53,635 nucleotides of DNA from a virus, in the IMG/VR virus record IMGVR_UViG_3300027917_000057, positions 1 through 53,635 of that record; one strand, 5' to 3'. A program made the translations under genes and the position numbers. How positions within the stretch are numbered: position 1 is the first letter of the stretch; each line of letters starts with the position of its first letter. The notes under the pieces are model-generated. The model made no database searches, had not been told where the DNA came from, and saw only the letters and a list, made by a program, of their open reading frames with translations. Below, in pieces: positions 3,001-47,559 of this stretch.

Positions 3001-4457
3001 CCGGCGTTGAGGTGCTCGACTACGTGAACAGCCCCACCTGGTTCCGGGGTATCCTAAACCAGGGCATCTTCTTCGAGGTTCAGAAGTTCCACACGTTCTT
3101 GGTTCGGGTGAACAGCGCGGCTTTCAATCTGAGCTCGCTGTTGTTCACGCAGGAGTTTGTCAACAAGATCAAGCCTGTCTTCAAGAAGCCTCTTTTCTAC
3201 ATCCGCTTTGACGTGTCGGATGGTGGTGACGAGATAGACCTCACGGATCTGGTTCAGTACTTTCCTACGCTGAACCTATTCGAGAGCTGCTGCTCGGCAA
3301 CAGGCTGGGCGCCTATCGTGGACGACCCTGACCCGTCAGCTGACCCCCTTGGGAACCCGGAGGGGATGAAGACGGGAGCCTGGAAGAACGCGGTCGATAC
3401 AGATGGGGATGTCGCACCGACCTACCCGACACCGGACTCTCCGATCAAGTGGGGTGTGGACAAGCAGTACTTCTGCCCAGAGGACAGCGTGGCCACACTG
3501 CGATGCGAGGTGCATCCCGATGCCACCGCTGACATTGCCTTCGTCTCAGCAACAGAAGCAGACTTCACTAAGACTTCAGGTAGCTGGAACGATGTGCTCC
3601 TCGAGCTCGGGGACGTCATACAGGTCACCACAGGGTCGAACGCAGGTTTCACCTTCCTCGTCACGGATGTAACGGGATTCCCGACGGTCTTCCGTGGAAC
3701 GATCCTCAGTGGTGGGCCACCAGTAACCGAGCTCGCGCAGACGCTGATCCTCACCCCAAGGGTGGACTCTACCTTCCAGATAGACTCTGGGATTGAAGAG
3801 CACTACCACTACGAGGCGCTGTCTCCTGCTTCTATCCCGTTGGCGGGACTGACCCTAACACCGGTAGGCTCCAATATTTCCCAGCTCACTGGTACCTCTC
3901 TTATCACGACGGCCATCTTCCAGGGAGATCAGGGGGACGGACAGAGTGTTGGTATCTCGGTGCTCGACATCGTTACGGCAGCCTTCGCGAAGACAAGCGG
4001 TGGCTGGCCGGATGTAGACCTGCTCCTGGGCGACCTAGTACTCATTACTACTGGTTCAAACGCCGGTCAGGTATTTGAGGTCGTGGATGTATCGGGCTAC
4101 CCGTCCACTTTCATCGGGGAACAGAGAGCCGGAAGCGGCGCTCCTGTCAGCGAGCTGGGTCAGACACTCGTGAACCTAGGGCCTAGGTACGAAGTGGCCG
4201 TCCTGGTGAACAGCGTTGAGCAGGGAGCTTTCCAGTCCACTGTGAAGGAGAATCGGGAGACGGATGCTTCGTTGGCCATCGCCACAGTGCCTACTGACGT
4301 GATAGACGTCTTGGTCCGTCCTGCTGCGGGCACAGTTGCGCGGACGCCTAACTGGAGCAGGGTATCGGCCCTCATCCAGAACGTGGATGGGCAGTGGCAG
4401 GTAGACGTTCCAGTGCCCGCTAGCACCTACTGCATGAAGAGCGAGCTGGCTCCATGA
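27..4457 (+). CDS. Very large tail/baseplate-like structural protein with PKD domain
   Basis: This 1476-residue protein opens with a Gly/Trp-rich tract (GGGPWGGGPW). A PKD-type beta-sandwich begins near residue 256 (ADAGDDQAV, then YDPEGQPLSYAW) and resumes near residue 400 (FYPDVPGFYLFDLLVTDG), so roughly 85 residues seem to be inserted in it. From about residue 450 a helical and mixed region resembles large wedge or baseplate components. Two copies of a module of about 70 residues, with the core LGDxxxxTTGSNAG, start near residues 1172 and 1315. PKD domains usually mediate surface or glycan contacts in phage virions. It is coupled to the next gene by an ATGA overlap. The structural role is inferred from size, composition and context, and no specific tail protein family is recognised. 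Confidence 0.75.
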   Translation: MSGGFGGGPWGGGPWGGGGAPLVGPSLPIPTGDPWDVFEVCTPSIIGNLASYLEVNLFGDGNSFAWGVGFFNICSGFGLAPAAPTAHVQFDVNVNEEFTLEATVVFDALPDDFLDLPNEHLFIGAYSLNSSAAGLFISDDGLQYTGSVSFSGTDLVVASPVIPIPGTAGLVLPGVEYVIRIIADAPAGTALIYVTESTLLPSTGQQLIAILPLLDYTSASPPPTQDEVIISARSASSAGSCATFSCIRFASSALIENIAPIADAGDDQAVRMCSIVKLDGERSYDPEGQPLSYAWRLIDAPPTSSFIFSGGDGSTAPEAPPTGYTNTLTSGEAAVEHALSPFDVGDVLVVRGVPYTIDSILSGPFRIVVERSQIPDDVSGEPFKILRQAAISGTSTVSPTFYPDVPGFYLFDLLVTDGFLPSSPTGLDRDTVLINVLESPLPRGCNPDASFIFDYLLSFWKLVEDSDVVAQFWTALAQVAASELYTLWQLEYSKSLRDIQRSFIRRWIHYDLLLPEPLPELTTLRTIWGGALSDPQPAAGVAGIKGTSLVVTTRTLPAAVTVPFDSPGTVPIQELRGVIENRLRSLVDDGFRVTAVENRITGDYTFRILLDKPFTLTSDSTLPIFSSYPKFNDNPRGVGTVTGGNTFDTNFSLSGLGLEEDDLIVLDRTGYRIAQLVDNPADAFAFSRVLLKEDISGTPTDWVLPGWVQSELLNFYAGLVDYGDVLEFEALEDDPATPVVEQVASFLETTAFGVTEGLFGRLAFDTKDLAQRVPLNATSVLLSRVIRRHYVPVDPLIQAVPTLTPNIVIEDDQETLRENADYFLDTFRGQAALRFQSGTPSDAGDVWEGARPIDRLWAEYTYVDNSPLIEANFGIPIGLLRDEIAALPDNVDYLSAVRGLWYAYYNGPTVRNIRIGAQILLGLPFAEEAGVIEEIRNDFILKRGRILIRDAANAAIVRSYDYPNVLDLEVNPVTNEPYAVGDAVDQFAPLVTGVEVLDYVNSPTWFRGILNQGIFFEVQKFHTFLVRVNSAAFNLSSLLFTQEFVNKIKPVFKKPLFYIRFDVSDGGDEIDLTDLVQYFPTLNLFESCCSATGWAPIVDDPDPSADPLGNPEGMKTGAWKNAVDTDGDVAPTYPTPDSPIKWGVDKQYFCPEDSVATLRCEVHPDATADIAFVSATEADFTKTSGSWNDVLLELGDVIQVTTGSNAGFTFLVTDVTGFPTVFRGTILSGGPPVTELAQTLILTPRVDSTFQIDSGIEEHYHYEALSPASIPLAGLTLTPVGSNISQLTGTSLITTAIFQGDQGDGQSVGISVLDIVTAAFAKTSGGWPDVDLLLGDLVLITTGSNAGQVFEVVDVSGYPSTFIGEQRAGSGAPVSELGQTLVNLGPRYEVAVLVNSVEQGAFQSTVKENRETDASLAIATVPTDVIDVLVRPAAGTVARTPNWSRVSALIQNVDGQWQVDVPVPASTYCMKSELAP

Positions 4458-5101
4458 AGAACAACGTAGTCATCAAGCACTACAAGAAGCGCCAGCTAGT
4501 AGAGGTACGGGAGCTCCACAACATCTGGACCAGTGTGGGCCACACCTATCTGGCTGAGATGGTGAGTCTCACGTCTCTGGATCCGGACGTACCCATACGC
4601 AGCGACCGCCTCAAATACTTTGCGCTGGGTATGGGAGGCACGCGAGGGGGCGTTTCTGTCGACCCTACTGTGGCTGCTACTTACCCGGCGGGCAGCGACC
4701 CCAACGCCACGGCAGGGAACGAGTACAACGTAGCCTTCCCTGGCTACCCGCCCATCACTACCCTCGAGCTACCTGTAAAGAGGACCGGAGGTGCCACCGC
4801 GTACCCAGGTGCCCCCTCAGATGAATGGCTATTTGGCCCTACGGAAGGGGTCTTCACCACACGGTACGAAGACGACATCTCCCTGACCCTGCACGCCCCC
4901 ATCGACACATCAGGGGGAGATATCACTGGGATTTGGGGACCGGTGCATGTAGTGCCGATAACAGAAGCCGCTTTGCTCACTAGCGCGGCTGACGTAAACA
5001 CGGCCTACAACGAAGTGCTGGCCTACATCTCGTTTGATAGCATCTACTTGGACGACGACACTCAGCTCGAGTTTGTTTGGACAGTGAGGTTCTTGGAATG
5101 A
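4454..5101 (+). CDS. Tail-associated structural protein, paralogue A
   Basis: This 215-residue protein starts at the ATG inside the ATGA overlap with the large tail gene. It is similar to the next gene product over its whole length. Both have an N-terminal basic strand region, a block around residues 20-70 reading SPDVP or DPDVP then RxKYxxxGxGG, a middle SLERPV or TLELPVK followed by AYPG, and a C-terminal (L/I)xYxxFD with a final strand. This is an apparent tandem duplication. Soluble, with no membrane segment. The family is not recognised; a baseplate or fibre-attachment role is inferred from its position. Confidence 0.75.
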   Translation: MKNNVVIKHYKKRQLVEVRELHNIWTSVGHTYLAEMVSLTSLDPDVPIRSDRLKYFALGMGGTRGGVSVDPTVAATYPAGSDPNATAGNEYNVAFPGYPPITTLELPVKRTGGATAYPGAPSDEWLFGPTEGVFTTRYEDDISLTLHAPIDTSGGDITGIWGPVHVVPITEAALLTSAADVNTAYNEVLAYISFDSIYLDDDTQLEFVWTVRFLE

Positions 5102-5721
5102 GGATCTTTGAAGACATCGAAGTCCGGTACAACCTGGACATCACTGCTCGTGAGCGGGGAAAGATTGTTGACCGTCGTCTGACGCACAACATCTTCGTGG
5201 ACCTAGGAAGAGAGTGGATTTCGCAGCTCATCTCCTATGTGACCTTCAGCCCCGACGTTCCCGAGAACAACTATCGCGTCAAGTACATGGGGTTCGGTAT
5301 AGGAGGTAACCGGCAGACCTCTCCATCTGTTGCGGACACGTCTCCCATCAGCCCTCCTTACTCTGGCGCCAATGTGCAGACAGATACGGATCGTACGGTC
5401 ACCTCTCTGGAGCGCCCTGTTCGTGTTACTGGGTCCAGCAGTGCATACCCCGGGCTTGCTGGGGACAAGTGGCTCGGGTTGATACAAGCTCCGGCAGAGC
5501 ACCCCACAGCGCAGCGAACTGCGTTTCGTAGGGTCTTCACCTCAGTGGAGGTCAGCTACGCTCCCTTCCTGGGAGTCCCCCTGAGTGAGATTGGCCTGTA
5601 TACCTCAGCGGCCAACCCTGAGGGGTACAAGAACAACCTCATCGCCTACGACACGTTCGACACCATTACGAAGACCACGGCGGTAGAGCTCGAGGTCGTC
5701 TGGACCTTCATCTTCGGATAG
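5098..5721 (+). CDS. Tail-associated structural protein, paralogue B
   Basis: A 207-residue tandem paralogue of the preceding product. I take the start at ATG 5098, which overlaps the previous stop as ATGA. An in-frame TTG at 5077 would add seven residues but breaks the overlap pattern and has no advantage. Conserved landmarks are THNIFVDLGREWISQL near the N-terminus (compare LHNIWTSVGHTYLAEM in the neighbour), YMGFGIGGNR, SLERPVRVTG and AYPGLAGDKWLG. The C-terminus, VELEVVWTFIFG, matches LEFVWTVRFLE of paralogue A. Function unknown; virion assembly is likely from context. Confidence 0.75.
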   Translation: MRIFEDIEVRYNLDITARERGKIVDRRLTHNIFVDLGREWISQLISYVTFSPDVPENNYRVKYMGFGIGGNRQTSPSVADTSPISPPYSGANVQTDTDRTVTSLERPVRVTGSSSAYPGLAGDKWLGLIQAPAEHPTAQRTAFRRVFTSVEVSYAPFLGVPLSEIGLYTSAANPEGYKNNLIAYDTFDTITKTTAVELEVVWTFIFG

Positions 5722-5760: not shown

Positions 5761-7746
5761 ATGCCCCTTCATCGATACGTTGACCCGACCTACTTTCTAG
5801 GGGTCGGCGTAACCTTTCCAGGAACTATCTTCGGAACGGCCTACGACCGCATCAATGTCACGAGCGGCGGTGTGGGCGCTGGCGGTAGCGCATTTGCTGA
5901 CGGGGCCAAGAGTGCGGGCCCCAACGTGGGTACGTACTTCGTGGCATTCGGGGAGGACGCCACAAGCGTCCACTTCAACCGGGGGCACCGCGCTCTTGCT
6001 CAGAACACGGACTACTTGGACGATGTAGTCCACAGAGATCTGGCGGTCCGAAACCTCGCAGTGGTGGTGTCCGCAGGAGATACTTCTACTGATCTAGATG
6101 GCTCAGTCACACCAGTCTTCGTCGGAAATCCAGGGGCGGTAGCAGAGCTTCTGTTTGTCCTCACGGCGTACCCCAGCCTAGAGCCTCTGTACGACCCGGT
6201 AACAGGCGCCCAAATTGTCGTCTCCAGCATTTCGGGGGCAACGCTCGGTACGGGATTTTCCGCCGCTAACCCCATCACGCTGAACTTCAGCGCCACGATC
6301 CCCAACGGGGTCACCTACATCGTCTGGTACGCCGATCGCGGGAACCTAGCGACGCATCCCAGCGATTTGGTAGCGGATCTCCTGCCCGCGCACGCCACTA
6401 CAGCGCCTTCGGTGGGTGCGATCTTTCGTGGGGGGCTCGATGCACGATATCGAAATGCCTCCAGTGCCGGCGCTGCGGCGTTGGATACCCCAGGAGCAGG
6501 CGCGGTCATCAACAGAGATGGGCCCGCCCCTGCTGTAGACGTACAGGACACAACAGCCTTATTCGATGACCCAATAGGTGCTTGTTGGAAGGCCTTCAGC
6601 AGCGCATCTAGCGCTGGAGGGTTCATCTCTGGTGAACTCAGCGGCCTAGGCTTTGCTCACTACGTCAGTGATAGAGGGTCTACCGATTCGGCTGAACAGG
6701 GGCCTGCAAACAGCGCTGGTTCCTTCGCTTCCGTTTGGCCCCACGATTACACAGGAGTTCTGGCAGGTACCGTTCGTACGCAGATCCGTGCGGGGTACGC
6801 CACTGGAACTACTCTGAACCCAGGCGGTGTGGGCGGCGACGTAGTGCAGGCTGGGGTGGGAGACTTCTTCTACAACGGCTCGCTAGAATCAGCGGTCAAC
6901 ACAGGGTTCGACCTCCTTGAGGTCACCCGCGCTAGTGGCACCGTCGAGTGCTACGTCATCACTCAGTTCGACACGGGTGATCAGCGCCGTTGCTACGTAC
7001 GAGACCTTTCAGGCGCTACTCCTGCTTTCCCTCCCAACGAATCCGTCACGCTGCGTTGGATAACCACGAAGTTCTGGCAGGGACCCAGCACGGGGGTCAA
7101 GTATGATCTAGTGAACGGCCCTTCGGGTGACGTTGTGTACCTGGGGAACCTCCAGCACTTCGTGAGTCCCCCCAATGGGCACACCGCACCTCTGTCTGAA
7201 TCCTTCCCGATCTTCGGAGCTCGCGATAACACTAGCTACGCCCTAGCTTGGATGGGCTTCAACGCTGACGCCTCCACGGGGTACAGCGGCGCGCTCCTAG
7301 GACTTTCGTCCACGAAGACCCACGGCGTCCTACAGGGGGACGGTGGTATTCGTACGGGTGGGAACAGCAGCTTTGGCGCGTTCAAGTACAAGCGCCAGTC
7401 GATGTCTGTGTCGGGTACGGGGTCTCAGCAGTGGGACCTAGATGCCTACCCTCTCTTGGTCATTGATGTGACCTCCGATGGAGAGACACTGACTTTGACT
7501 CTCCCGGGTAGCTTGAGTGCCACTGATGGACAGCGCTGTGCTGTTGTAGTTCGCCTCGGCGCCGCTGTTTCGACGTTCACGCTGGCGTGGCCAACGTCCC
7601 CCTACAACTTCGTATTCAGCACCTCGGGGGATAAGACCCCAACGCAAGGGCCGGACTCGGTGACCCGCTACGATGGGGTTTTTGGATTGAATGGTTTCTT
7701 GGTGACCAAGACTGCCTATCCGGGTGGCGGTGTGACGGGTCCGTGA
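5761..7746 (+). CDS. Large Gly/Ser/Thr-rich fibre-like structural protein
   Basis: A 661-residue protein with an AGGAG ribosome site about 9 nt before ATG 5761. It is rich in Gly, Ala, Ser, Thr and beta-strand-like segments, with no hydrophobic helix and few charged residues. That profile suits receptor-binding or fibre proteins. Residues near 80-160 (LAQNTDYLDD, then VVVSAGDTSTDLDGSVTPVFVG) resemble segments common in tail-associated phage proteins, but I cannot assign a family. The C-terminal 100 residues (LPGSLSATDGQRCAVVVRLG) read like a small beta-sandwich. The upstream gap (5722-5760) contains TATACT at 5730-5735, a possible -10 element. Confidence 0.7.
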   Translation: MPLHRYVDPTYFLGVGVTFPGTIFGTAYDRINVTSGGVGAGGSAFADGAKSAGPNVGTYFVAFGEDATSVHFNRGHRALAQNTDYLDDVVHRDLAVRNLAVVVSAGDTSTDLDGSVTPVFVGNPGAVAELLFVLTAYPSLEPLYDPVTGAQIVVSSISGATLGTGFSAANPITLNFSATIPNGVTYIVWYADRGNLATHPSDLVADLLPAHATTAPSVGAIFRGGLDARYRNASSAGAAALDTPGAGAVINRDGPAPAVDVQDTTALFDDPIGACWKAFSSASSAGGFISGELSGLGFAHYVSDRGSTDSAEQGPANSAGSFASVWPHDYTGVLAGTVRTQIRAGYATGTTLNPGGVGGDVVQAGVGDFFYNGSLESAVNTGFDLLEVTRASGTVECYVITQFDTGDQRRCYVRDLSGATPAFPPNESVTLRWITTKFWQGPSTGVKYDLVNGPSGDVVYLGNLQHFVSPPNGHTAPLSESFPIFGARDNTSYALAWMGFNADASTGYSGALLGLSSTKTHGVLQGDGGIRTGGNSSFGAFKYKRQSMSVSGTGSQQWDLDAYPLLVIDVTSDGETLTLTLPGSLSATDGQRCAVVVRLGAAVSTFTLAWPTSPYNFVFSTSGDKTPTQGPDSVTRYDGVFGLNGFLVTKTAYPGGGVTGP

Positions 7747-22576: not shown

Positions 22577-22596
22577 GAGGGCCCCTAAGGGCCCTC
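22577..22596. terminator. Bidirectional hairpin between convergent genes
   Basis: GAGGGCCC (22577-22584), CTAA loop, GGGCCCTC (22589-22596): a perfect 8-bp stem. It lies 9 nt after the last + strand gene and overlaps the end of the -1 frame extension on the - strand. There is no clear T-run on either side, so it may terminate weakly or protect 3' ends. Confidence 0.5.
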
Positions 22597-22763
22597 CCAT
22601 GCTGCGCGTACTAGGTCGTCCTCAGATCGGAAGCCTAGCTGACGTGCTACGTCGATCTTCTGTAAGGGCAATAGAGCGTTGAGCTGCGCGAGGTCTATCT
22701 CGAGGACGTCTTCGGCCCGGGGCAGAACGCACCCGGGCCAGACGTCGGCCTCGCTTAGCCTTT
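22585..22763 (-). CDS. -1 frame extension of the low-complexity protein (frameshift product)
   Basis: A 58-codon open frame (22761 down to TAG at 22587-22585) lies in the -1 phase relative to the gene ending at 22755. It reads RLSEADVWPGC, then LPRAEDVLEIDLAQLNALL and LQKIDVARQLGFRSEDDL, an amphipathic, protein-like sequence. As an independent gene it would need GTG 22827, which has no ribosome site and overlaps the other gene by 73 nt. A -1 slip at GGGAAAA (22767-22761) joins the frames exactly after Lys287, giving a product of about 345 residues. Function of the extension unknown. Confidence 0.65.
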
Positions 22764-22767
22764 TCCC
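22705..22767 (-). promoter_or_regulatory. Candidate programmed -1 ribosomal frameshift signal
   Basis: On the - strand the heptamer G-GGA-AAA (22767-22761) is in the correct zero-frame phase of a canonical XXXYYYZ slippery site. One codon later comes the TAA stop. Fourteen bases beyond the heptamer a strong stem starts: GACGTC, T, GGCCCGGG (22746-22732), 10-nt loop, CCCGGGCC (22721-22714), GAA, GACGTC (22710-22705). All 14 pairs are Watson-Crick, with a small internal bulge. The lambda G/GT tail-chaperone site uses GGGAAAG. The spacer is longer than the usual 5-9 nt. Confidence 0.65.
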
Positions 22768-23621
22768 TGCTGCTCGAGCCCTTGTAGTAGGAGGCTGACG
22801 CCGCCTCCATTGAGCGATGCTCCCCACCGAGGCAGGAAGTTCTCTCTGGGCTGCTGGGCCATGGCTTCGTAGAGGTCCACCACGATGGTCAGCAGTACCG
22901 CCAGCATCTGACTGTTCCCCACGGTGGCCGCATGGATAGCCCTCATCATCTCGATGGAGGCAAGGTCACCCTCTGCTACCTTGGAGAGCGTGTTGATGAT
23001 CTCTTCATTGTTCTCTGCCAGCCTCTTGAGGATGGCGGCGCTGGGGCCTGGGTCGACCGATGGCTTCCTCCCTGTCGTCTTTGTGGGAGGCTCCGGGTCT
23101 CTCTCGTCAGGGGGCTGAGGAGCCTGCTGTGGGGCAGGCCGGGCCATCCCCGGCATGTTCATGGGGCCGGGCATTCTGCCTACAGGAGCGACGGTTCCCG
23201 GCAGGGCCATCTGTTGGCCCGGAGGGGCCATCGGTGGGCGAGCAGGGCCCGGTAGCGTCATGGGGCCGCCTGGAGGTGCCTGCGTCATCGTGGGAACCAT
23301 CTGCGGAGGATACTGGGGGGCTTGGGATGGCTGCATCTGAGGGGGTGTAGGGTACTGCACCTGAGTGGCCATCTGGGGAGGCATCTGCCCTTGCATAGGG
23401 GCAGGGCGCGGCGCGCTCCCATTGCTGGGTGAGTAGGCAGCCTTGCTGGCTTCGAAAAGTGCCTGAGCCTGGGCCTCGGGGCTGGCTACGCCGTAGGCCT
23501 GCTTGTCCTCGATGCTCGGGAGGGCCTTTAGGCGGTTCATGGCTCCGAAGCGCTGCGAGGGCGTCATAGCCATGCAAGTTTCGAGAGTAAGGGGGCCTTC
23601 TTGCTGGATGTTGAGTTTCAT
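22755..23621 (-). CDS. Pro/Met/Gln-rich protein with ordered ends (frameshift donor)
   Basis: 288 residues. Residues 1-60 are ordered (LTLETCMAMTPSQRFGAMNRL). Residues about 65-180 are a low-complexity Pro/Met/Gln/Gly linker. Residues 190-285 are helical (ILKRLAENNEEIINTLSKV to LAVLLTIVVDLYEAMAQQ). The stop codon is embedded in a -1 frameshift cassette that would add 58 residues. ATG follows the previous stop directly. In many phages such pairs are tail assembly chaperones, but here the gene ends a replication and recombination operon, opposite to the tail genes, so that role is only a possibility. Confidence 0.7.
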   Translation of the reverse strand: MKLNIQQEGPLTLETCMAMTPSQRFGAMNRLKALPSIEDKQAYGVASPEAQAQALFEASKAAYSPSNGSAPRPAPMQGQMPPQMATQVQYPTPPQMQPSQAPQYPPQMVPTMTQAPPGGPMTLPGPARPPMAPPGQQMALPGTVAPVGRMPGPMNMPGMARPAPQQAPQPPDERDPEPPTKTTGRKPSVDPGPSAAILKRLAENNEEIINTLSKVAEGDLASIEMMRAIHAATVGNSQMLAVLLTIVVDLYEAMAQQPRENFLPRWGASLNGGGVSLLLQGLEQQGKG

Positions 23622-23996
23622 TCACTTCCTCAGGTTGTTGATGAGGTGCTCGTACTGATGGCCCTGTACCAGACAGGTCACCACCTGCATGTCGGAGCAC
23701 CCGAAGCATGGTCGCGGATCCGGATTGGGAACGTCTTTCAGGTTCTTGGCCGGACAGGTCAGCTGTGGTCGCAGGCTCATCCAGTAAGCGTCGATGAAAC
23801 TGATGAGTCCGTTCCTCCAGGAGTCGATCGAGCCGGCGGTTTCTGGTAGCTCGAGCTCACCAGAAATCCAACCGATATACTCTTCCGCACTTCTACCTGG
23901 AGGAACCTGCAAGCCGTTTCGTCGGCAAGTTTGGTAGAGCTCGGTGAGGTTAACCCCGGCTAGGAGCTGGTGAAAATCGACACTCGAATTGTACAT
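23622..23996 (-). CDS. Cys-containing small protein
   Basis: 124 residues. The N-terminal 80 residues are helical (VNLTELYQTCRRNGL, WRNGLISFIDAYWMSLR). The C-terminal part carries a Cys cluster (LTCPAK, then PCFGCSDMQVVTC) that could bind zinc or an iron-sulfur centre. It overlaps the RusA-like gene by 47 nt and abuts the next start. Not recognised. Its position links it to the recombination set. Confidence 0.55.
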   Translation of the reverse strand: MYNSSVDFHQLLAGVNLTELYQTCRRNGLQVPPGRSAEEYIGWISGELELPETAGSIDSWRNGLISFIDAYWMSLRPQLTCPAKNLKDVPNPDPRPCFGCSDMQVVTCLVQGHQYEHLINNLRK

Positions 23997-24465
23997 GTCG
24001 CTCTACCTCGTCAAAGGGGCAGTCGTCCTGCTCCCAGCTCCACGCCCAGATCTCAGTTCGCTCCTCTTCTTCCGTCCTAGCAGATTCTTTCCACAGAAGG
24101 ATGCGGAAGTGCTGAGAATCATCGTGCCCGCACGCAGCGGTGAGCGCGTCTTCTAGGAGCTTCAGTCTGTTGCTCACATCAACTTTCTTATACCGGTTTG
24201 CGGCTCCTCCTGGCGTTCCCCACGTTTTGGACAGCAGGTCGGCCATGTAGAACCGGACCACAAGACAGTATGGGAGGTCTGGCTTGAAGAACCTAAGAAC
24301 GTCCTGCCTGCTCTGGGCCAGGTAAGTCTTCACGCCGGTCTTGTATCTCTTACCCTCCGCAGTGAGAACCCGTAAGGGGATGCTCTTGTTGCCCTTCCTC
24401 TGGACCTTGGTGAAATATGCGTGGTTGGAAGAGGGTGGGAGCCCATCTAGGACGAAGTAGATCAT
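23950..24465 (-). CDS. rusA: RusA-family Holliday junction resolvase
   Basis: 171 residues. The RusA signature is present: PPSSNHAYF near the N-terminus (residues 10-18), then KVDVSNRLKLLEDALTAAC with Asp96, Asn99, Lys102 and Asp106, followed by GHDDSQHF (Asp115, Asp116). These acidic residues and the lysine form the Mg-dependent active site that cuts four-way junctions. The C-terminal 45 residues are acidic and beyond the usual core of about 120 residues. Start is in an ATGA overlap with the preceding gene. Likely resolves recombination and replication intermediates before packaging. Confidence 0.88.
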   Translation of the reverse strand: MIYFVLDGLPPSSNHAYFTKVQRKGNKSIPLRVLTAEGKRYKTGVKTYLAQSRQDVLRFFKPDLPYCLVVRFYMADLLSKTWGTPGGAANRYKKVDVSNRLKLLEDALTAACGHDDSQHFRILLWKESARTEEEERTEIWAWSWEQDDCPFDEVERHVQFECRFSPAPSRG

Positions 24466-25046
24466 CGCATCTGCCCCATTGGGCGACGCCCAGCCATCTT
24501 TCCACCGAGGTCGATGTTCTGACCGCGTATAGTTACCTGACGGCTCAGACCAGAAGCAAGGCGCTCCAGGCTGTCGATTCGGGCTTTTAGCACTGCTTCG
24601 GTATTCTTGAGCTCAGCTAGGTCTCTGCGGATCTGACGGCACCGAGGGTACGACTGCGCCTCTTCCTTGATCTCTGTTTCTGACGGCTGGTTCTTCTTCG
24701 GGACGTTTTCGTGCTGCTTGCGATACTGGCGTTTGATCTCTCGTTCTAGGTCTCTCAGCTCTTCTTCTAGCCCTATGATGTGCCCTTCGCACCACGCGTG
24801 CCGGTCCTTGGCATACACGAACCAGAGGTCTACGAGAGCCATGAGTCTGGTGTACTGGTCGCCCTCGATGTTCTCGTAGTCTCGGATGGAGATGTGAGGG
24901 AAGTCACCCTCGGGTTTGGGGAGTTCGTCGAATCCCATCATGACTAGCTTTTGGTAACTGCTGTCGTAGACATCCCAGAAGTCCTCTATGGTTTGCTGCT
25001 GTCGGTCTGGGATGCCCAAGCCTTGAACAGTCAAGCCTTGCGTCAT
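24462..25046 (-). CDS. Coiled-coil protein of the recombination operon
   Basis: 194 residues, ATGA-coupled on both sides between the RusA-like and Cas4-like genes. The N-terminus contains FWDVYDSSYQKLVMMGF. Residues about 88-160 are a charged coiled coil (GLEEELRDLEREIKRQYRKQ, then RRDLAELKNTEAVLKARIDS). The tail is Gly/Arg-rich. No catalytic motif. Tight coupling suggests a partner of the nucleases, perhaps a loader or adaptor. Family unknown. Confidence 0.65.
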   Translation of the reverse strand: MTQGLTVQGLGIPDRQQQTIEDFWDVYDSSYQKLVMMGFDELPKPEGDFPHISIRDYENIEGDQYTRLMALVDLWFVYAKDRHAWCEGHIIGLEEELRDLEREIKRQYRKQHENVPKKNQPSETEIKEEAQSYPRCRQIRRDLAELKNTEAVLKARIDSLERLASGLSRQVTIRGQNIDLGGKMAGRRPMGQMR

Positions 25047-25900
25047 CTAAACTCTCCAGGAGGAGGTGGTCCTCTCCTCTTTCGGGTTAGGCCTGCCAGC
25101 GTTGTTGGCATGCAGGTCCATGAGTAGGGGCACCAACCGCAGGGCATGCCCTCTGAGCGATCTGGCAGTGTTCCGGTAGCTGCTAGAGAGTGCGCCTGTT
25201 GCATCTTGTTCTCTAGGCGGTTCCAGAGCTTGTGGTCAAAGGCTACTAGGTAGGGCGCCTTGGGGCTGGTCCAGTTCGAGTTCGACTTGTTGTAGTAGAA
25301 GAACCACATCAAAGGGAGGTCCAAGACCTTCATGTAGACGTGGGCTTGTTCTAGGTGGTAGTCGAGTGGTTTGCGGAGTTTGGCGAACTCCTTGTCGCTC
25401 ATCGACTTGATCTCGAGGCCTACTCGGAGGTACGGGGTGTGGTTCGAGAAGAACAGAAACTCCCCGTCGCTGTGCGAGTAGATCTCGTACTTCTTGGTTA
25501 GCTCATTCAGCTCGGGAGTGATCTCGACCTCAGACTGAAATTCGACGGTTCCATCGGACATCCAGCACATTCGGTCGAAGTCGTCCTGAGCCAGAGAGTG
25601 CAGCAGCGTCCCCTGCTGGAAACGCCGCCGCATGTTGGTGTTGACCCGCTCTGGGTCGTTCTTCTTCTCAGTGGCCGCGATGGAGTAGACAACTCTCCGC
25701 AGGCAGCCAGAGATCTCCGAGGCGTGAACACCGTTTGCCCTGTCTTCGTCACCTCCCATGGGGACGTGTATGACGCGCCGGGCAGTATCTCTCTTCTTGT
25801 ACTCCTCGTAGAGGTCTCCGAGCCACGCGACGTTCGGCAGAAGGCTCTGCCATCCGTCCCTTCCCAGGTCATCGATCGTCAGCAGTTGCGGTGGGTTCAA
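25043..25900 (-). CDS. Cas4/RecB-like PD-(D/E)XK nuclease with Fe-S cysteines
   Basis: 285 residues from TTG 25900. All Cas4/AddB-type landmarks are visible: Cys66 (SEISGCLRR), His101 (LLHSLA), Asp145 (HSDGEF), Glu163-x-Lys165 (GLEIKSM), the QxxxY box at 185-189 (QAHVY), and a C-terminal cluster Cys254, Cys257, Cys263 (CGWCPYSWTC). Cys66 with the C-terminal cluster would hold a 4Fe-4S centre. Members are Mg-dependent single-strand exonucleases or endonucleases. No CRISPR array or cas genes are nearby, and it sits with RecA-, RusA- and Hjc-like genes, so end processing for phage recombination is the likely role. Confidence 0.87.
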   Translation of the reverse strand: MNPPQLLTIDDLGRDGWQSLLPNVAWLGDLYEEYKKRDTARRVIHVPMGGDEDRANGVHASEISGCLRRVVYSIAATEKKNDPERVNTNMRRRFQQGTLLHSLAQDDFDRMCWMSDGTVEFQSEVEITPELNELTKKYEIYSHSDGEFLFFSNHTPYLRVGLEIKSMSDKEFAKLRKPLDYHLEQAHVYMKVLDLPLMWFFYYNKSNSNWTSPKAPYLVAFDHKLWNRLENKMQQAHSLAATGTLPDRSEGMPCGWCPYSWTCMPTTLAGLTRKRRGPPPPGEFR

Positions 25901-27834: not shown

Positions 27835-28141
27835 GAGTAGCCTCCAACCGTCTCTTGAGAATCCGAGACTTGGTGAAGTATACCCGATAGTTCTGCTCGA
27901 CTTTCACCCCCTTTGGGCCCCCCTTCGGGCCACGTCCAAAGAGAGGGACTTCTCGGTCGACCTGCATACGGACCACACGAAGGCGTCCGATGCTCTCCAG
28001 GAAGATCTCCCTCCGCTTAGAGAGCTGCTCAGATGCGATGTCTAGAAAGGCAGCTGTGATCTCCCGAACGGTTCTTTCAGACCAGCCAGTCTTCAGAGAG
28101 ACCAGCCGGTCCAGCTCCATCTTTACTTGGCTTGTCCCCAT
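27812..28141 (-). CDS. HU/IHF-like DNA-bending protein
   Basis: 109 residues, slightly longer than the usual 90. The HU-type pattern runs MELDRLVSLKTGWSER, VREITAAFLDIASEQLSKRR, then IFLESIGRLRVVRM, a basic beta-arm with GRGPKGGPKG, and RVYFTKSRILKRRL. The arm replaces the classical Pro-containing tip with a Gly/Lys/Pro segment. Start at ATG 28141 overlaps the polymerase end by 19 nt; ATG 28120 is the alternative. Likely bends or compacts phage DNA during replication or transcription. Confidence 0.82.
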   Translation of the reverse strand: MGTSQVKMELDRLVSLKTGWSERTVREITAAFLDIASEQLSKRREIFLESIGRLRVVRMQVDREVPLFGRGPKGGPKGVKVEQNYRVYFTKSRILKRRLEATHGKARRR

Positions 28142-30168
28142 GAGTTCCCCACTCCTGCTTCGGCCGTCAGAGGGCAGGCCAGTTCTGATGTGAATGGGTG
28201 GGCCATCATGTCTTCGATGAGGGCCTTCACCTCTTCCGTCGTTTCCTCCGGGGCCTCGAACACCAACTCATCATGGATCTGCAGCAGCATGTAGGCGCCG
28301 TAGTGGTAGTCCAGCGCCATGGCATCCAGATTGAGCTGCGCCATCTTGGTCACGTCTGCTGCCGACCCCTGGATCTGGGTGTTCACTGCGAGGCGTTCAC
28401 CCAACGCTTGTTCATCCTTTCGATACGAAGAGATCATTGGGATGTTGCGTCGGCGCCCTAGGACAGTGAAGGCGTAGCCGTACTTCTTCCCCTCCTCGAC
28501 GGCCTCTGTGAAGAAGCGGTCGACTGCGGGGTAGGTCTCTTTGTAGGTCCTGATCTTGTCCTGCGCTTCTCTAAGGCTAGAGTTGATCTGCTTGCTAAGC
28601 TTGCCCGCACCCATACCGTAGTTGAGCCCGAAGCCGATGCTCTTCGCGTCATTTCTGGCTTTCAGGCACTCACGCACGTAGGCCATGACACCGTCTACGC
28701 TGAAGCCGTAGCGGTTTTGAATCGCCTCGATCCCACCGGACAGGCTTTGCTGCACCAGTACCAGAACCTCTTCTGGAGTTAGCTCGCCCTTCTTGATCTT
28801 CTTGTCGATGACGTTCTTGCAGTAGTCAATATGCTCGTACTCGATGTCGAACATCAGACTGGCGTTGCCCTGATGAATGTCCCAGCCTCTGCGGAAGATA
28901 TCGATCATCGATTCCTCCATAGCGGCTGCGGACAGAAGACGCATCTCCAGCTGAGAGTAGTCAGCTGCCAGGATCTTGTTGCCCGGAGTGGTGATAAACG
29001 CTTCCCGGATCCCCCACTTGTCGTTCTCTGGCCGGGGAATGTTCTGCAGGTTGGGGTTGGAGCTAGAAAGACGGCCGGTGCGTGCCACGTCTTGATTGAA
29101 CGTGGAGTGGATGCGCCCATTGGGGTCTCGAACGTCTAGGAGCCCTACCAAGTAGGTACCGTGCAGCTTGGAGTACTCACGATGGGTCAGCACTAGCTCT
29201 GCGGCCAAGACCTCATTCTTGTAGTGCTCCAAGAACTCGCTATCTACGCTGGCTTGCTGGACGCCGGTCTTCCCACCCTTGGTTTTCCTCAGCGGTTCGA
29301 GGCCCAGTTCATCGATGAAGTACTCTCGCATCTGCGGCGTGCTGTTGATGTTGAGCATCCTGCCCACGGTTTTGACGATCTCTCGTCCTATCCGGTTGAT
29401 TTCAGCCTCTGCCTCAGGACGGGCTTTTTCTAGACGGTTCACGTCGATGAGGATCCCCCGACGTTCCATCTTCCAGAGGACCTTGGTGAAAGGGACCTCG
29501 ATCTTGTGAAAGTAGTCCCACAGGGTGTTGATATAGGGTGGTTCGTCGCTGAAGAGAGAGTGGGTGAATGAGCTCTCTAGCTGCTTTCGGAGCTCATGGA
29601 ATATGAGCAGAGTGCCCCAGGCATCATTGGCCGCGTATTCGACAAGTAGGTTGAAGTTCTCGCTCTCGGCTCTTTTGATGAGCTGTTCTGCGGACTGCTT
29701 CTTCCCGATCTTCCCGAAGGTGTCTTGGAAGTCAGCCCAGGTCCAGCCAAGGATGTGCTGCGCTATGAACTTCAGTCGGTGCGGCTTGTCTTCGTACAGA
29801 AGAGAGTGCATCACCTGTACGCAGTTGAGCCTACCTGCCAAGTTGATCCCCACGTTAGCGAGAATGTGCGCGTCGTACTTGGCGTTCGCGAGAATCCAAT
29901 CCTTCTTGGAGTCTGCGAAGGCCTCCATGAAGTACGGAAGGAGCTCAGCGTTTAGGGTGGCTCTCCTATTCGTGCCCCAGGCTAGCGACCAGTAGAGGGG
30001 TATGTCCCGCCAGTTCACCAAGCCCGTAGTCTCGGTGTCGATGGCCACGTAGCGCTCAGCAGCGACTTCTCGGATTATGTTCTCGAGTCTCTCGCCAGTA
30101 TAGGGGCAGGTCGTGTACCCAGGGCCGAAGTACATGGTCGTGGGTAGATCGATGTTCCATCCTGTCAT
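28123..30168 (-). CDS. Family A DNA polymerase with 3'-5' exonuclease
   Basis: 681 residues. The exonuclease has motif I DTETTG (44-49), motif II NAKYDAH (95-101) and motif III YAAND (178-182). The polymerase has TGRLSSSNPNLQNIP (364-378), motif A DYSQLEMR (403-410), motif B RNDAKSIGFGLNYG (505-518) and motif C QIHDELVFE (630-638). There is no 5' nuclease domain. About 60 extra residues (441-500) lie between motifs A and B in the fingers. It would be the replicative polymerase, given the primase and helicase upstream in the same direction. A strong hairpin precedes the gene. Confidence 0.95.
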   Translation of the reverse strand: MTGWNIDLPTTMYFGPGYTTCPYTGERLENIIREVAAERYVAIDTETTGLVNWRDIPLYWSLAWGTNRRATLNAELLPYFMEAFADSKKDWILANAKYDAHILANVGINLAGRLNCVQVMHSLLYEDKPHRLKFIAQHILGWTWADFQDTFGKIGKKQSAEQLIKRAESENFNLLVEYAANDAWGTLLIFHELRKQLESSFTHSLFSDEPPYINTLWDYFHKIEVPFTKVLWKMERRGILIDVNRLEKARPEAEAEINRIGREIVKTVGRMLNINSTPQMREYFIDELGLEPLRKTKGGKTGVQQASVDSEFLEHYKNEVLAAELVLTHREYSKLHGTYLVGLLDVRDPNGRIHSTFNQDVARTGRLSSSNPNLQNIPRPENDKWGIREAFITTPGNKILAADYSQLEMRLLSAAAMEESMIDIFRRGWDIHQGNASLMFDIEYEHIDYCKNVIDKKIKKGELTPEEVLVLVQQSLSGGIEAIQNRYGFSVDGVMAYVRECLKARNDAKSIGFGLNYGMGAGKLSKQINSSLREAQDKIRTYKETYPAVDRFFTEAVEEGKKYGYAFTVLGRRRNIPMISSYRKDEQALGERLAVNTQIQGSAADVTKMAQLNLDAMALDYHYGAYMLLQIHDELVFEAPEETTEEVKALIEDMMAHPFTSELACPLTAEAGVGNSWGQAK

Positions 30169-30218: not shown

Positions 30219-31643
30219 TTACTTCGGGGGCTGACGGACGCTAGGCATCCCTGCGAGCCCCGGCATGCTGGGGAACGAAGGAATGGGCGCGGGTTGTGGC
30301 GAGGTCCCCACCGGAGCTGCAGGAGCTGCGGGAGGCGCAAAGCCGGGAGCGGGCTGCATACCAGGCAGACGTAGGGACTGTCCTCCCCCGAAGCCAGTAG
30401 GAGCCGCTGCTGTGGGTTGCGGCGGCGCCAAGGGGTTCGGAGCTGCAGGGGGCGGAGCTTGGTATACGGGCTGTTGTGGCGGTTGGTACATGGGTTGCTG
30501 ATGAACCTGGGCCTGCACGGGAGGGGCCGGGTTCCTGTCTTCTGCTGTAGCCGTGCCCCACCACTCTGCCTGCTTATCCAGCGGTGCGGGCTTGAACTTT
30601 GCCAGGAGGTCCAACGGCTGGATCGATGCCAGAATCTGCGGGTCCTCGACCTGGATGGGCCGCGGCTCGCTACGGTTGAGGATCTGAAGGAACGTCTGCT
30701 GCCCCTTGGTCCCAACCGATGTGATCTGGAGGTCCACATCGAAGATGGAGGCGCGCTTTCCTGCACCGCAGGCGGAGCAGTTGACGACCTCTATGGGGTA
30801 GCCGTTGAACCCGCACTGACACTGGTGCGGATTGTTGTCGATCTGAGCACGTTGCTCGGGGGTGAGCGTGGTGTTGGTATCGTAGACCACTCCACCGCAG
30901 TTGGCGCAGTTGCGGCTGATGAACTGGATAGCGCCTCGGGTCCCGCAGTTAGCGCAGTCCTGCATGATGTAGTCGTTGTTGCTCAGCAGCGTGTCCTTGT
31001 ACGTTTCCCCCATCGGCCACGCAATGAGATGTCCGTACTTGGACTCGCACCCAGCGTAGCGAGGGTCGTTCTCCTGCCCCATGACCCAATCCATCCGAGG
31101 CTGGCCTTGCTGATCGACCACGGTGCGCCCCTGTCCGTCCTTCCTAGGGGCGTTGTACCAGAGGCCGTAGTCCCACCAGGTGAAGGCGTACATGTCACGC
31201 ATAGAGATGCGATTGGGGCCCTTGGTGCGATCCCCTGCCGCCCTCTTCTGAGATCGGATGCTGTAGTCCTCCCAGAAGATGTCGCAGCCGTGGCATGGGT
31301 TGCGTAAGGAGCGGTTGCGGAACAGAGGACCTGCGGAGCAGATGCCCCCACGTCCTACCTGGCCACCCATGTAGTGCTCCTTGAACATGACGTACTCGTA
31401 CATGACCTGCTCGACCGTCTGATCGTCGAAACTCACTTCCTGCACGTATTGCCCAGGGATGAGTCGGCCGAAGCGGGCGTGGTTCGTTGGAACCTTGAAG
31501 GTGTCCTTCCAGTAGGGAGCACCCCCGCCCCCTCCTCGCGGACGGTTCTGTCGAGCATTCGACAGATGACGGGCACGCTGACTGAGGTTGCCACCGTAGG
31601 GGACTACGCGACCGAGTTGCTCGGGGTTCTTTCCGAATGCCAT
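30219..31643 (-). CDS. Multi-zinc-knuckle protein with Pro/Gln-rich tail, replisome-associated
   Basis: 474 residues. The N-terminal 340 residues contain several Cys pairs: PCHGCDIFW (117-120), CANCGTRG (230-233), CANCGG (246-249), CQCG (275-277) and CSACGAG (289-292). Aromatic residues are plentiful (FTWWDYGLWY). Residues about 370-474 are Pro/Gln/Ala low complexity. It sits between primase and polymerase in one operon, so a single-stranded DNA-binding or replisome-scaffold role is plausible. I do not recognise the family, and the role is inference. Confidence 0.7.
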   Translation of the reverse strand: MAFGKNPEQLGRVVPYGGNLSQRARHLSNARQNRPRGGGGGAPYWKDTFKVPTNHARFGRLIPGQYVQEVSFDDQTVEQVMYEYVMFKEHYMGGQVGRGGICSAGPLFRNRSLRNPCHGCDIFWEDYSIRSQKRAAGDRTKGPNRISMRDMYAFTWWDYGLWYNAPRKDGQGRTVVDQQGQPRMDWVMGQENDPRYAGCESKYGHLIAWPMGETYKDTLLSNNDYIMQDCANCGTRGAIQFISRNCANCGGVVYDTNTTLTPEQRAQIDNNPHQCQCGFNGYPIEVVNCSACGAGKRASIFDVDLQITSVGTKGQQTFLQILNRSEPRPIQVEDPQILASIQPLDLLAKFKPAPLDKQAEWWGTATAEDRNPAPPVQAQVHQQPMYQPPQQPVYQAPPPAAPNPLAPPQPTAAAPTGFGGGQSLRLPGMQPAPGFAPPAAPAAPVGTSPQPAPIPSFPSMPGLAGMPSVRQPPK

Positions 31644-31647
31644 GTGT

Positions 31648-32661
31648 TTACTCCTGTTGGGCGATCGTGCCCATCTTCTTTTCCAGCCATGTTGTGTAGG
31701 GGACAGCCTTCGTGAACTGCTCTAGAACTTCGTCTTGTTCCAGGCTGTCTGGTTGCGCTTCGTCTACTTCTTCTAACCGCTTTGGGTATTCGACGACGAG
31801 GGTATCGACGCTTCGGGTGAGTGCCGCGCTGGCTTTTGAAACGCCATCAATCCCCGCGTTGTTGTTGTCCAGGAAGAGGTACACCGGCACCCCGAGCCTT
31901 TCAAGGATCCACTGCTGCTCCCAGGACAGATAACTTCCTAGGAGACCGACCACGTTCGTTATGCCGGCTTGATGCACCCACATGCAGGCCTTGAAGCCTT
32001 CCACGACAGCCACGAATGCAGTGCTGGGGTTCAGCTGAAGAGTGGCGGGGTAGACCGCGTGGGCGTTGTAGAGCAGCCCCCTCTTGTTCCAGTTGAGTCG
32101 TTCTGGGAGCCCCCACGTCTTGTACTCACGGTCGTAGATCTTGTATCGGGGCCAGGCTTCCGAGCTAATTGCCCGGCCGCTGATTCCGACTAAGTAGCCA
32201 CGTATGTCTCGCAGGGGGAAGGTGATCCTGTTGTGCCACTTGTCGAATCCGACCTCGAAGTGACGCAGCGTCTTATCCTCAAACCCTGCCTCGAGCAATG
32301 AGGTGGGGCACATGTCTAGGAGGCCTAGGAACGTCTCGTCGATGGGGAGCATCTCGAAGACGCCAGGCCGTGTAGGATCTGGAGGCTTGGGAGAGTTTTG
32401 CTTGGCGGCCTCTATGAGCGCGTCGTATCGGAGCTTGAGGGCCTGAGCACCCACTCCCATGTCCCGAAGGAACGTCCTCAAGGTCCCCCGTGCGTGGCAC
32501 GAGTGACAGAAGAACACTCCGTTGATCAGGCTCATTGCGAATGACGGTTTGCTCTCCTCGTGAAACGGGCACACCGCCATGATGTTTTCGGGGCCGGACC
32601 TCCTGACCTTGTCCAGGTATTGCTCAGCAAGGGAGTAAATCTCCCCGGAAATGTCCATCAT
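31648..32661 (-). CDS. DnaG-type DNA primase
   Basis: 337 residues. The zinc domain has CPFH at 31-34 and CHSC at 52-55 (C-x2-H-x17-C-x2-C), the CHC2 pattern of bacterial and phage primases. The TOPRIM domain begins FVAVVEGFKA with Glu221 and continues to YLFLDNNNAG (261-270), where the second acidic motif is reduced to one Asp. It lays RNA primers for the replisome. The start overlaps the helicase stop as TAATG. Length is short for DnaG because the helicase-interaction domain is missing or replaced by the acidic tail. Confidence 0.9.
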   Translation of the reverse strand: MMDISGEIYSLAEQYLDKVRRSGPENIMAVCPFHEESKPSFAMSLINGVFFCHSCHARGTLRTFLRDMGVGAQALKLRYDALIEAAKQNSPKPPDPTRPGVFEMLPIDETFLGLLDMCPTSLLEAGFEDKTLRHFEVGFDKWHNRITFPLRDIRGYLVGISGRAISSEAWPRYKIYDREYKTWGLPERLNWNKRGLLYNAHAVYPATLQLNPSTAFVAVVEGFKACMWVHQAGITNVVGLLGSYLSWEQQWILERLGVPVYLFLDNNNAGIDGVSKASAALTRSVDTLVVEYPKRLEEVDEAQPDSLEQDEVLEQFTKAVPYTTWLEKKMGTIAQQE

Positions 32662-34031
32662 TAGGGCTCGTAGTCTGTCATCAAGTCTTTCACGGCTTCT
32701 GATTGTGACGGAGGCTTCTTCTTCTTTTTGCCCGCTGCCTCCTTGGTGTCGGCGTCGTCCTTGCGCATGGCCCTATCGGCCTCCTTCTGGGTGATCTCTT
32801 CGTCCTTCACTCCGAAGTTGATAGCCGGCACACCATAGATGCGAAAGCCGTTGAGCTTGAACCGCCTGGCCACGTTGCCCATGACCAGCGCGATGGTGTC
32901 GTCATCCTTTTCGTTGATGACGCGTATGAGATGAGTGCAGTCCTGCCCCAGCGAATCGCTGAATGCGATGTCTTCGGTGTTCGCGCCTTCATTCTGTGCG
33001 GCCTGCCGATTTGCCTGGACGGTCCCAATGACAGGGGTGTCGTAGTGCAGGATCATCTGCCGTAGGTCATTGGAGATATTCCGGACCCTGTCGTGCCGTT
33101 GCTTGGCGTGCTGCTGGTCCTTCATTAGGTAGAGGCCGTCGATGAACACTGCATCGGGCACGTACTTCTCCACCTTGCTCGAGAGCCACGCGACGGTGTC
33201 GTTTCCTCCTGGAGCATCTTTGGCTGAGAGGCATACGACCATGTGCGAGCTTCTGGCAGCCTGCAGAAAGTCCCTGATGTTGTAGACGGCCTCCCTCTCA
33301 TCCGGTACGAGACGGCCTGTAATGAACCTTTCGTAGTCCACCTGTGCAATGCAGCAGCCCACCCTCTCGAAGATTTCAATGGGTGGCATCTCTTTGGTAT
33401 AGATGAGGATGCGCTTGCCGTTCTCGAAGAACCAGGCGATGAGGAAGCACAGAATCCAACTCTTCATGCTCTTGGGCCGACCAAAAAACACGATGTAGTC
33501 GTGCTTCCGGATGCCCATAGTTTTGCGTTGGATGGGTGCCCAGGGCCACGGACAGACGGATACGTCTACCCCTGCGCCCACCATGTCCATCTCTTCAACG
33601 GCTGCACTGAAGCCGTCTGCAAAATGGACGTCGGTCTTCTTCGGGTTGCAGTCGTTCTGTAGGTCTGCTGCCTTTTGGTGCATCAAGGCTACAGCCCCCA
33701 TTGGGTCGGTCATCAGCATGTCGCCGAGCTCGACCAAGAGTTGCCTAGCCTGTGCTTTGATCCTGTTCGCCCTGACCTCCTGACACAGGGCTGCGAGAGT
33801 CATCCCCGGGTCATCGATGAGAGGGAAGTTGGGGTAGGCCTGAGCTAGTGCGCTGGGCCCCCACACCGCTCCCGCAGTAGAGGGTTGCTGGAAGTAGGCG
33901 AGCAGAGTGCCGTACATCGTTCGACCCTCTGCGGTAGTGAAGTCGGTATCTGTTATGCCCCACTCGATGACATCGCTGAGCTGGCCTGTACGGATGATAC
34001 GCGAGAGAAGCTGGTGCTCCCAGGAAGAGAT
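32661..34031 (-). CDS. DnaB-like replicative helicase (probable ATC start)
   Basis: RecA-fold helicase core with FFGRPKSMKSW (Walker A region), DAVFIDGLYLMKD (Walker B) and VIGTVQANRQ (sensor). The first ATG is 33917, giving 418 residues, with AGAGGG just upstream. However, the frame continues upstream as SSWEHQLLSRIIRTGQL and VIEWGITDTDFTTAEG, which looks like the natural N-terminus. It begins at ATC 34031, 8 nt after a strong AAGGAGG. No NTG codon lies between the in-frame TAG (34097-34095) and 33917. I annotate from 34031 (456 residues). The Walker A glycine before Lys is Met. It unwinds the fork with the coupled primase. Confidence 0.85.
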   Translation of the reverse strand: MSSWEHQLLSRIIRTGQLSDVIEWGITDTDFTTAEGRTMYGTLLAYFQQPSTAGAVWGPSALAQAYPNFPLIDDPGMTLAALCQEVRANRIKAQARQLLVELGDMLMTDPMGAVALMHQKAADLQNDCNPKKTDVHFADGFSAAVEEMDMVGAGVDVSVCPWPWAPIQRKTMGIRKHDYIVFFGRPKSMKSWILCFLIAWFFENGKRILIYTKEMPPIEIFERVGCCIAQVDYERFITGRLVPDEREAVYNIRDFLQAARSSHMVVCLSAKDAPGGNDTVAWLSSKVEKYVPDAVFIDGLYLMKDQQHAKQRHDRVRNISNDLRQMILHYDTPVIGTVQANRQAAQNEGANTEDIAFSDSLGQDCTHLIRVINEKDDDTIALVMGNVARRFKLNGFRIYGVPAINFGVKDEEITQKEADRAMRKDDADTKEAAGKKKKKPPSQSEAVKDLMTDYEP

Positions 34032-46248: not shown

Positions 46249-47559
46249 CTACTCTGGAAGTATTGGCGGCTTGAGAGCCTGGTTCTTTTCGCAGACGACA
46301 ATGTGCCCCCAGTTGGCGGGCTTTCTAGCCCAAGGGGTTCGGACTACACACCAGATTACGTCCATGCCTCTCGGAGGAGCTGCTGGTGCAACTCCGTCGC
46401 CGTCAGTGATGTAGATCACGAGATTGGGCCGCGGTCGTAGCTTTACTAGCTTCTCGAAGGCGATTCTGAAGTCGGTACCGCCTCTACCATGGAACCCCAG
46501 ATTGGGTATCTGCGCTGCGCGCACCTGCTGGCAGTAGTGGACGTCTACGTCGACGTGTAGCAACCAAATCTTGTCGGAAGTGATCTTCTTGGCGATGTGG
46601 AAGCTTTCGTTGTGGGCATCTTGTAGCTGATCGGGCCCCATGGACCCCGAGGTGTCCACCACCACTGCTGCCACGATTGGGCGGTCCACAAGTCCGCTCA
46701 GCAGCGCGCCAGTAAACATGCCTGTCATGGAGGGGCGCTGCATCGAATAGTCACGAGCACCTGCTCGGATGGCTCCGGAGGAACGTCTGGCAACTTGCCT
46801 AAATTTTTGGCGCCAGTTGACGTCTGGGGGTTTGATCTTGGTTTTGATGAGCTCGTGGTACCGGCCCGGAACGGACCCCCTACCGTGTGCTTCTATGTAC
46901 TGCTCGATGTCCTCCAGCGTCTTTCTCCTGATGGCTTCTACCTCGGCCGGGCTCTTGCCGTACTGAGCGTCTAGCTCGGCTTCGAGCTCCGCGTTCGAGG
47001 CGTGGCCCCCGCCGCCACCACAGGTTCCTTGCGCGACGCCGATCTGTGGCTGACCTTCACCTTTACCCTTCTTCTCCGCCGCCTTGGCCCTCAATTGGGA
47101 AATGGTGATCTTCTGCTCCGCACACATCTTCTGGAGCTTGTCGTAGTACCACTCCAGGTTCTTCCCGCCTGGGAGCCCCACGTCTTCGGGGTAGATGCCG
47201 CAATCAGGGAGCTCCTCGCCTTCCTCGCGCAGGTCGTAGTTAATGGCCCTATCGCCGGCGTCGTTGGCCAGCTCTAGATCTGGTAGGGCCTCCAGCCGGT
47301 CTATCCCTCGGAGCGGGTGCTCGAGCTCATGGCGTACCAGCCCTGCCATCTTTGCGTCGGTATCGACATAGGGGCTGCGTAGAACGAAGTCTGCCCCTAC
47401 GTACAAGACCAGATGCTTGGTGATCCCCATAGTGACGCCAGGTGTATTGACGACCACAGGAGTCAGGTTGAGCAGAGTTTCCGCTACGTACTCGGTCTTC
47501 TCCAGAATAGCCGCTCTAGCGAGCGCCAGACGGTGAAGGATTGCGGCCTCGTCGTCCAT
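46249..47559 (-). CDS. VWA protein with N-terminal zincin (HExxH), MoxR partner
   Basis: 436 residues. The N-terminal domain carries HELEH (77-81), a zinc-peptidase-like motif, in the style of the DUF2201 N-terminal domain. The C-terminal VWA domain has the MIDAS DTSGSM (302-307), a central GRGGTDF (about 352-358) and an ITDGDG strand. A Gly/Cys-rich linker (GTCGGGGGH) separates them. It pairs with the MoxR ATPase by a TAATG overlap. MoxR-VWA pairs act as chaperones that insert metals or remodel partner complexes. Whether the zincin is active is unknown. The hairpin at 46213 follows. Confidence 0.85.
   Translation of the reverse strand: MDDEAAILHRLALARAAILEKTEYVAETLLNLTPVVVNTPGVTMGITKHLVLYVGADFVLRSPYVDTDAKMAGLVRHELEHPLRGIDRLEALPDLELANDAGDRAINYDLREEGEELPDCGIYPEDVGLPGGKNLEWYYDKLQKMCAEQKITISQLRAKAAEKKGKGEGQPQIGVAQGTCGGGGGHASNAELEAELDAQYGKSPAEVEAIRRKTLEDIEQYIEAHGRGSVPGRYHELIKTKIKPPDVNWRQKFRQVARRSSGAIRAGARDYSMQRPSMTGMFTGALLSGLVDRPIVAAVVVDTSGSMGPDQLQDAHNESFHIAKKITSDKIWLLHVDVDVHYCQQVRAAQIPNLGFHGRGGTDFRIAFEKLVKLRPRPNLVIYITDGDGVAPAAPPRGMDVIWCVVRTPWARKPANWGHIVVCEKNQALKPPILPE

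Follow-up and report, generated by a model that had tools for sequence, protein, structure and literature searches.

Programmed -1 frameshifting most probably adds a short conserved tail to the product of the gene that ends the replication/recombination operon, on the strand opposite the virion genes, in the window (the whole 53,635-nt stretch of viral DNA analyzed here). In all 17 phages compared, the syntenic gene has a homologous tail encoded at its 3′ end in the -1 frame, and 15 of them carry GGGAAA[A/C] in phase, 0-5 sense codons ahead of the stop codon. The initial annotation had proposed that homologues be aligned for joint conservation of the heptamer and the -1 frame, and the alignment bears this conservation out. 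We assign a probability of about 0.92 to programmed -1 frameshifting at this slip site with a co-conserved tail, leaving the functional role of the tail apart. By sequence comparison, the gene appears to represent a new frameshifting family that is distinct from the one used in tail assembly.

The probable frameshift gene in the window

The 0-frame gene (22755-23621, minus strand) encodes 288 aa and has homologues in the 16 other phages. Its product consists of a helical N-domain, a Pro/Met/Gln-rich linker and a C-terminal coiled-coil-like region, and the 3′ end of the gene reads ...CAG GGA AAA GGC TAA on the minus strand, with the TAA stop at 22755-22757. The slippery heptamer G_GGA_AAA (22761-22767, minus strand) is in X_XXY_YYZ phase and sits one sense codon 5′ of this stop, as the initial annotation had described. 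The -1 frame extension (22585-22760, minus strand) runs for 58 codons past the slip and ends in TAG at 22587-22585. Translation across the slip gives GK|RLSEADVWPGCVLPRAEDVLEIDLAQLNALLPLQKIDVARQLGFRSEDDLVRAAWEGP*, with LSEADVWPGCVLPR as an example peptide from the tail, and near its start the extension has a WPGCVLP motif (22720-22740, minus strand) whose Trp is invariant in the family alignment. From the heptamer to this motif the -1 frame has no ATG, GTG or TTG, and its sole in-frame upstream start is a GTG located 60 nt 5′ of the heptamer, in agreement with the earlier account of a frame open for 58 codons that lacks a good start of its own. Among ORFs of at least 100 aa in the window, the 288-aa gene alone closes on a slippery heptamer in phase and continues into an open -1 frame. 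Heptamer, frame and operon context together uphold the original reading of a canonical -1 cassette closing a replication-operon gene.

Relatives and conservation of the tail

Used directly as queries, the 288-aa protein and its tail gave no usable match among phages or viral contigs because the protein is low in complexity and the tail is short. Two neighboring genes, one for a Cas4-like exonuclease and the other for a 124-aa protein with four cysteines (4-Cys), were used as search handles instead. After removal of duplicate loci, the sample held 16 IMG/VR relatives, or 17 phages including that of the window; since they were retrieved by neighboring genes, the relatives were not selected for frameshifting. 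All 16 are IMG/VR contigs, with no isolate among them. The RecA-like neighbor as a query found no relatives, and two scans of bacterial and archaeal genome contigs also found none, and hence no host. Searching for the WPG motif retrieved only members of the same family, and the tail was never seen as a free-standing gene. When four relatives were scanned over their whole contigs for frameshift sites, the WPG-tail gene was recovered in each, and the remaining matches were mostly sporadic.

The gene that follows the 4-Cys gene encodes a helical N-domain, a variable linker (Pro/Met/Gln-rich in many) and C-terminal helices in every relative. Tails from 16 phages were placed in one alignment, with that of G001 added from another, and they have the consensus W-P-G-x-x-L-P-x-x-(E/D)-D-(V/L). 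The motif typically starts as (L/V/I)WPGCxLPxxxD(V/L)xxV, with the most divergent versions in L010 (PWHTARRP) and L024 (WAGCSAP), and tail length across the family ranges from 25 to 69 residues. The tail is also kept in L076, where the slip site is G_GGG_GGA, and in L011, where the site (7142-7148) reads GAAGAAA and the WPG tail remains in the -1 frame with no recognized slippery site and no start codon. The three members found last acted as a test of the pattern: L077 and L085 have the predicted heptamer and tail, and L076 has the tail with the different site.

Constraint at the slip site and coding of the tail

With shuffled codons, GGGAAA[A/C] turns up among the final 8 codons at a chance rate of ~0.2% per gene. 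The residue before the heptamer can be Q, P, S, E, M, K, A or L, and the third base of its codon is G in 15 of 15 genes. The Gly codon of the heptamer is likewise GGA in all 15, although GGA accounts for 6-18% of the Gly codons there. Given the amino acids, this codon choice has a log10 P of about -27 when genes are treated as independent, which is not strictly true given their shared ancestry; in most pairs, synonymous sites are saturated or nearly so. Judged from codon choice, the constraint at the slip site is on the mRNA and not on the protein.

In pairwise comparisons, codon-position bias identifies the -1 frame as the one in which the tail is read. The trio of L017, L018 and L077 has a -1 frame dN/dS of 0.12-0.26 with a clear third-position excess, and such an excess is present in nearly all pairs, with dS saturated in the distant ones. 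The window's phage compared with G001, whose tail is interrupted by an N gap, gives a dN/dS of 0.54 over 90 nt, which is uninformative.

An alternative is stop-coupled restart on or close to the 0-frame stop, which would yield the tail as a small protein in its own right. An ATG in the tail frame does lie over that stop in L003 (TAATG) and L024 (ATGA), two members in which coupled restart is possible, and L010 has a GTG. However, 14 of the 17 phages, the window's included, have no ATG, GTG or TTG between the heptamer and the conserved Trp (13 of 17 when the count is taken back to the previous -1 stop), so independent restart cannot explain most tails. Restart would also have no need of a GGGAAA[A/C] in phase, nor of a G in the wobble position before it, and we consider it an improbable source of the tail.

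Hairpin and other candidate stimulators

An RNA hairpin 3′ of the heptamer (22705-22746, minus strand) is a possible stimulator of frameshifting, although only in the lineage of the window's phage. It is formed by GACGTC/T/GGCCCGGG paired with CCCGGGCC/GAA/GACGTC. The 71-nt segment with the hairpin folds at -37.8 kcal/mol (z = -3.25), and the segment downstream of the heptamer has z = -4.54 when folded alone. The spacer between heptamer and hairpin, at 14 nt, is rather long. Strong hairpins were found in the window's phage, L020, L076 and L024, but in L011, L017, L018, L021, L022 and others the hairpin is missing or no better than in shuffled sequence. The stem included in the initial description of the cassette is thus present, but it is not conserved across the family as the heptamer is, and we rejected the hairpin as a family-wide stimulator. 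An Rfam search at the frameshift locus found no family.

All four GGGAAAC members (L010, L018, L021 and L077) have a Shine-Dalgarno (SD)-like sequence 8-11 nt upstream of the heptamer, a pattern that was spotted post hoc against a background of 20-29% in the same genes and that includes two close relatives, L018 and L077. Most GGGAAAA relatives are without an upstream SD-like sequence, and many GGGAAAA members have no evident stimulator of either kind, hairpin or SD-like. We take a possible swap to the SD-like sequence in GGGAAAC members as a lead only. The stimulator seems to differ by lineage, with a hairpin in some phages and the SD-like sequence accompanying GGGAAAC.

Operon context and a second candidate frameshift gene

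The 124-aa 4-Cys gene (23622-23996, minus strand) directly precedes the frameshift gene in every relative examined. Its product has the pattern N-x-TELYQ plus CP...CxxC...C in an alignment of 14 phages, and the family has no match in Pfam, PHROGs or the PDB. The same minus-strand operon also holds genes for a RusA-like Holliday junction resolvase (23950-24465; Pfam RusA 4e-9, phrog_140), a Cas4/PD-(D/E)XK-type exonuclease (25043-25900; phrog_1706 5.7e-20, phrog_1990 1.4e-14), a DNA polymerase of type I (28123-30168; tblastn to annotated phage DNA polymerases), a primase (31648-32661; phrog_47 2.4e-39) and a DnaB-like helicase (32661-33917; DnaB_C 9e-16, phrog_19). The replication operon further encodes a 474-aa protein (30219-31643) that has several CxxC motifs and whose C-terminal linker is long and Pro/Gln-rich; no confident family was found for it.

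The initial annotation offered two identities for the frameshift gene, a displaced tail assembly chaperone pair of the lambda G/GT type or a new frameshifted protein. The chaperone reading has in its favor a shared mechanism, a similar heptamer and two products from one gene. Yet the WPG-tail gene has no match to tail chaperone families, and the comparison of structures with tail chaperones, put forward earlier as a check, gave Foldseek matches with E > 0.2 only. Tail chaperone genes are expected in the tail operon beside the tape measure gene, but the WPG-tail gene is found in the replication/recombination operon, behind the 4-Cys gene in every relative. In addition, five relatives own a further candidate gene for -1 frameshifting (about 440 + 148 aa). 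A displaced chaperone pair is therefore very improbable, and of the two identities it is the new frameshifted protein that the data support.

The second frameshift gene was found in three of the four scanned relatives, and its tail in five relatives overall (L057:4465-6242 in G005; L060 3976-5726, reverse strand, in G003; L033:1-1219 in G006; L069; and L070). It encodes ~440 aa where complete and a -1 tail of 144-148 aa (WLNTPxGWxxANLLL...); one codon ahead of the stop, its heptamers are GGGAAAA, GGGAAAT and AAAAAAT. The gene has no PHROGs match. In G005 and G006, where this was examined, its module holds a tape-measure-like protein of ~1200 aa. It is probably a tail assembly chaperone gene, and a better candidate for that role than the WPG-tail gene.

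The probability that the WPG-tail arrangement is a chance heptamer before a fortuitous open frame, or a sequencing or assembly frameshift in a continuous gene, is negligible: metagenome contigs do contain errors, and G001 has its N gap inside the tail, but the arrangement is shared by independent contigs that come from different metagenomes, with the stop always just past the slip site, and both the codon pattern there and the selection on the tail argue against an error.

Predicted structure and possible role

The AlphaFold model of the extension has a pLDDT of 79 and a pTM of 0.45, with helices at 26-31, 34-43 and 49-58. From this model and sub-threshold matches, the three-helix end of the extension (22594-22692, minus strand) is tentatively described as HeH/SAP-like. 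The best Pfam matches of the relatives' tails are Rho_N at 0.051 and HeH at 0.047, both below the curated cut-off, and the L021 member matches phrog_3281 with E = 2.4e-4. The main protein was modeled for the L021 member alone, with tail and main protein as separate parts; this homologue has an N-domain block with pLDDT of 93-98, a disordered linker and two long C-terminal helices. Foldseek gave no fold match to the PDB for the tail model and no significant match for either model, and a PDB sequence search with the tail and neighbor profiles returned chance-level matches only. A Pfam DUF7167 match for one member was rejected as below cut-off. The idea of a repeated module was also dropped, with the tail profile reaching 17% probability against the 4-Cys neighbor and 5% against the N-domain.

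Under programmed frameshifting, ribosomes that do not slip would stop 0-5 codons on and release a short form, and those that slip would produce a minority isoform with the WPGxxLP...(E/D)D tail, behind which most phages have a small helical segment resembling HeH/SAP/Rho_N modules. The protein may oligomerize through the C-terminal helices that directly precede the slip site, in which case the frameshift rate would set the number of tail-bearing subunits per oligomer, in the manner of lambda gpG/gpGT or E. coli DnaX tau/gamma. Operon context, the predicted helices and the weak HeH/Rho_N resemblance suggest that the tail could bind either DNA or some partner in the replication/recombination complex, a role we hold at somewhat less than even odds. 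The fuller model is equally tentative: in a lineage of large uncultured phages, -1 frameshifting may set the stoichiometry of a coiled-coil replication/recombination scaffold that has a long disordered linker and in which some copies carry a new WPG tail that binds nucleic acid or a partner, with frameshifting used in at least two modules of these phages.

The reviews consulted place most phage frameshifts in genes for tails or capsids, with others in mobile elements (PMC5009743, PMC10885494), and tail and capsid genes are also given as the main phage sites elsewhere (PMC3711429, PMC4066793). The WPG-tail gene resembles lambda G/GT in that ribosomes would slip to -1 close to the gene end, at a heptamer of the G_GGA_AA(G/A/C) type, giving a short form and a minority extended form (PMC5009743), but it lies in a replication operon, has no homology to G/GT and has a short tail with a new WPG motif. 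As in T7/T3 gene 10, Lactobacillus phage A2 and the Listeria phage capsid, frameshifting would extend a fraction of copies C-terminally (PMC5009743). In contrast to those extensions, which are on virion proteins and often Ig-like, the WPG tail is small, helical and set in a replication-gene context. For dnaX tau/gamma, frameshifting sets the isoform ratio of a replication protein, and a corresponding role here is by analogy only; the shifted dnaX product is the shorter one, and there is no homology with the WPG-tail protein. The end of the WPG tail is predicted as three helices, as in HeH/LEM, SAP and Rho_N modules, and single members have sub-threshold matches to these, but all Pfam matches fall below curated cut-offs and no PDB fold matches. 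We found no description of the WPG-tail family in the literature searched, which was of partial coverage.

A conserved frameshift in a replication/recombination-operon gene would widen the known use of recoding by phages. The WPG tail escapes gene finders because it has no start codon. The proposed stoichiometry switch is testable, and the constant slip site with changing stimulators offers a natural series for the gain and loss of stimulators.

Other gene pairs in the window

Two ORFs that follow each other with a slight overlap in the virion gene cluster (4454-5101 and 5077-5721) both match phrog_5417 (E = 0.0034 and 6.6e-11, respectively) and may be a tandem duplication. At 46249-48821, a MoxR-like AAA ATPase is encoded beside a DUF2201 VWA-like/metallopeptidase protein, forming an AAA-VWA pair on a phage.
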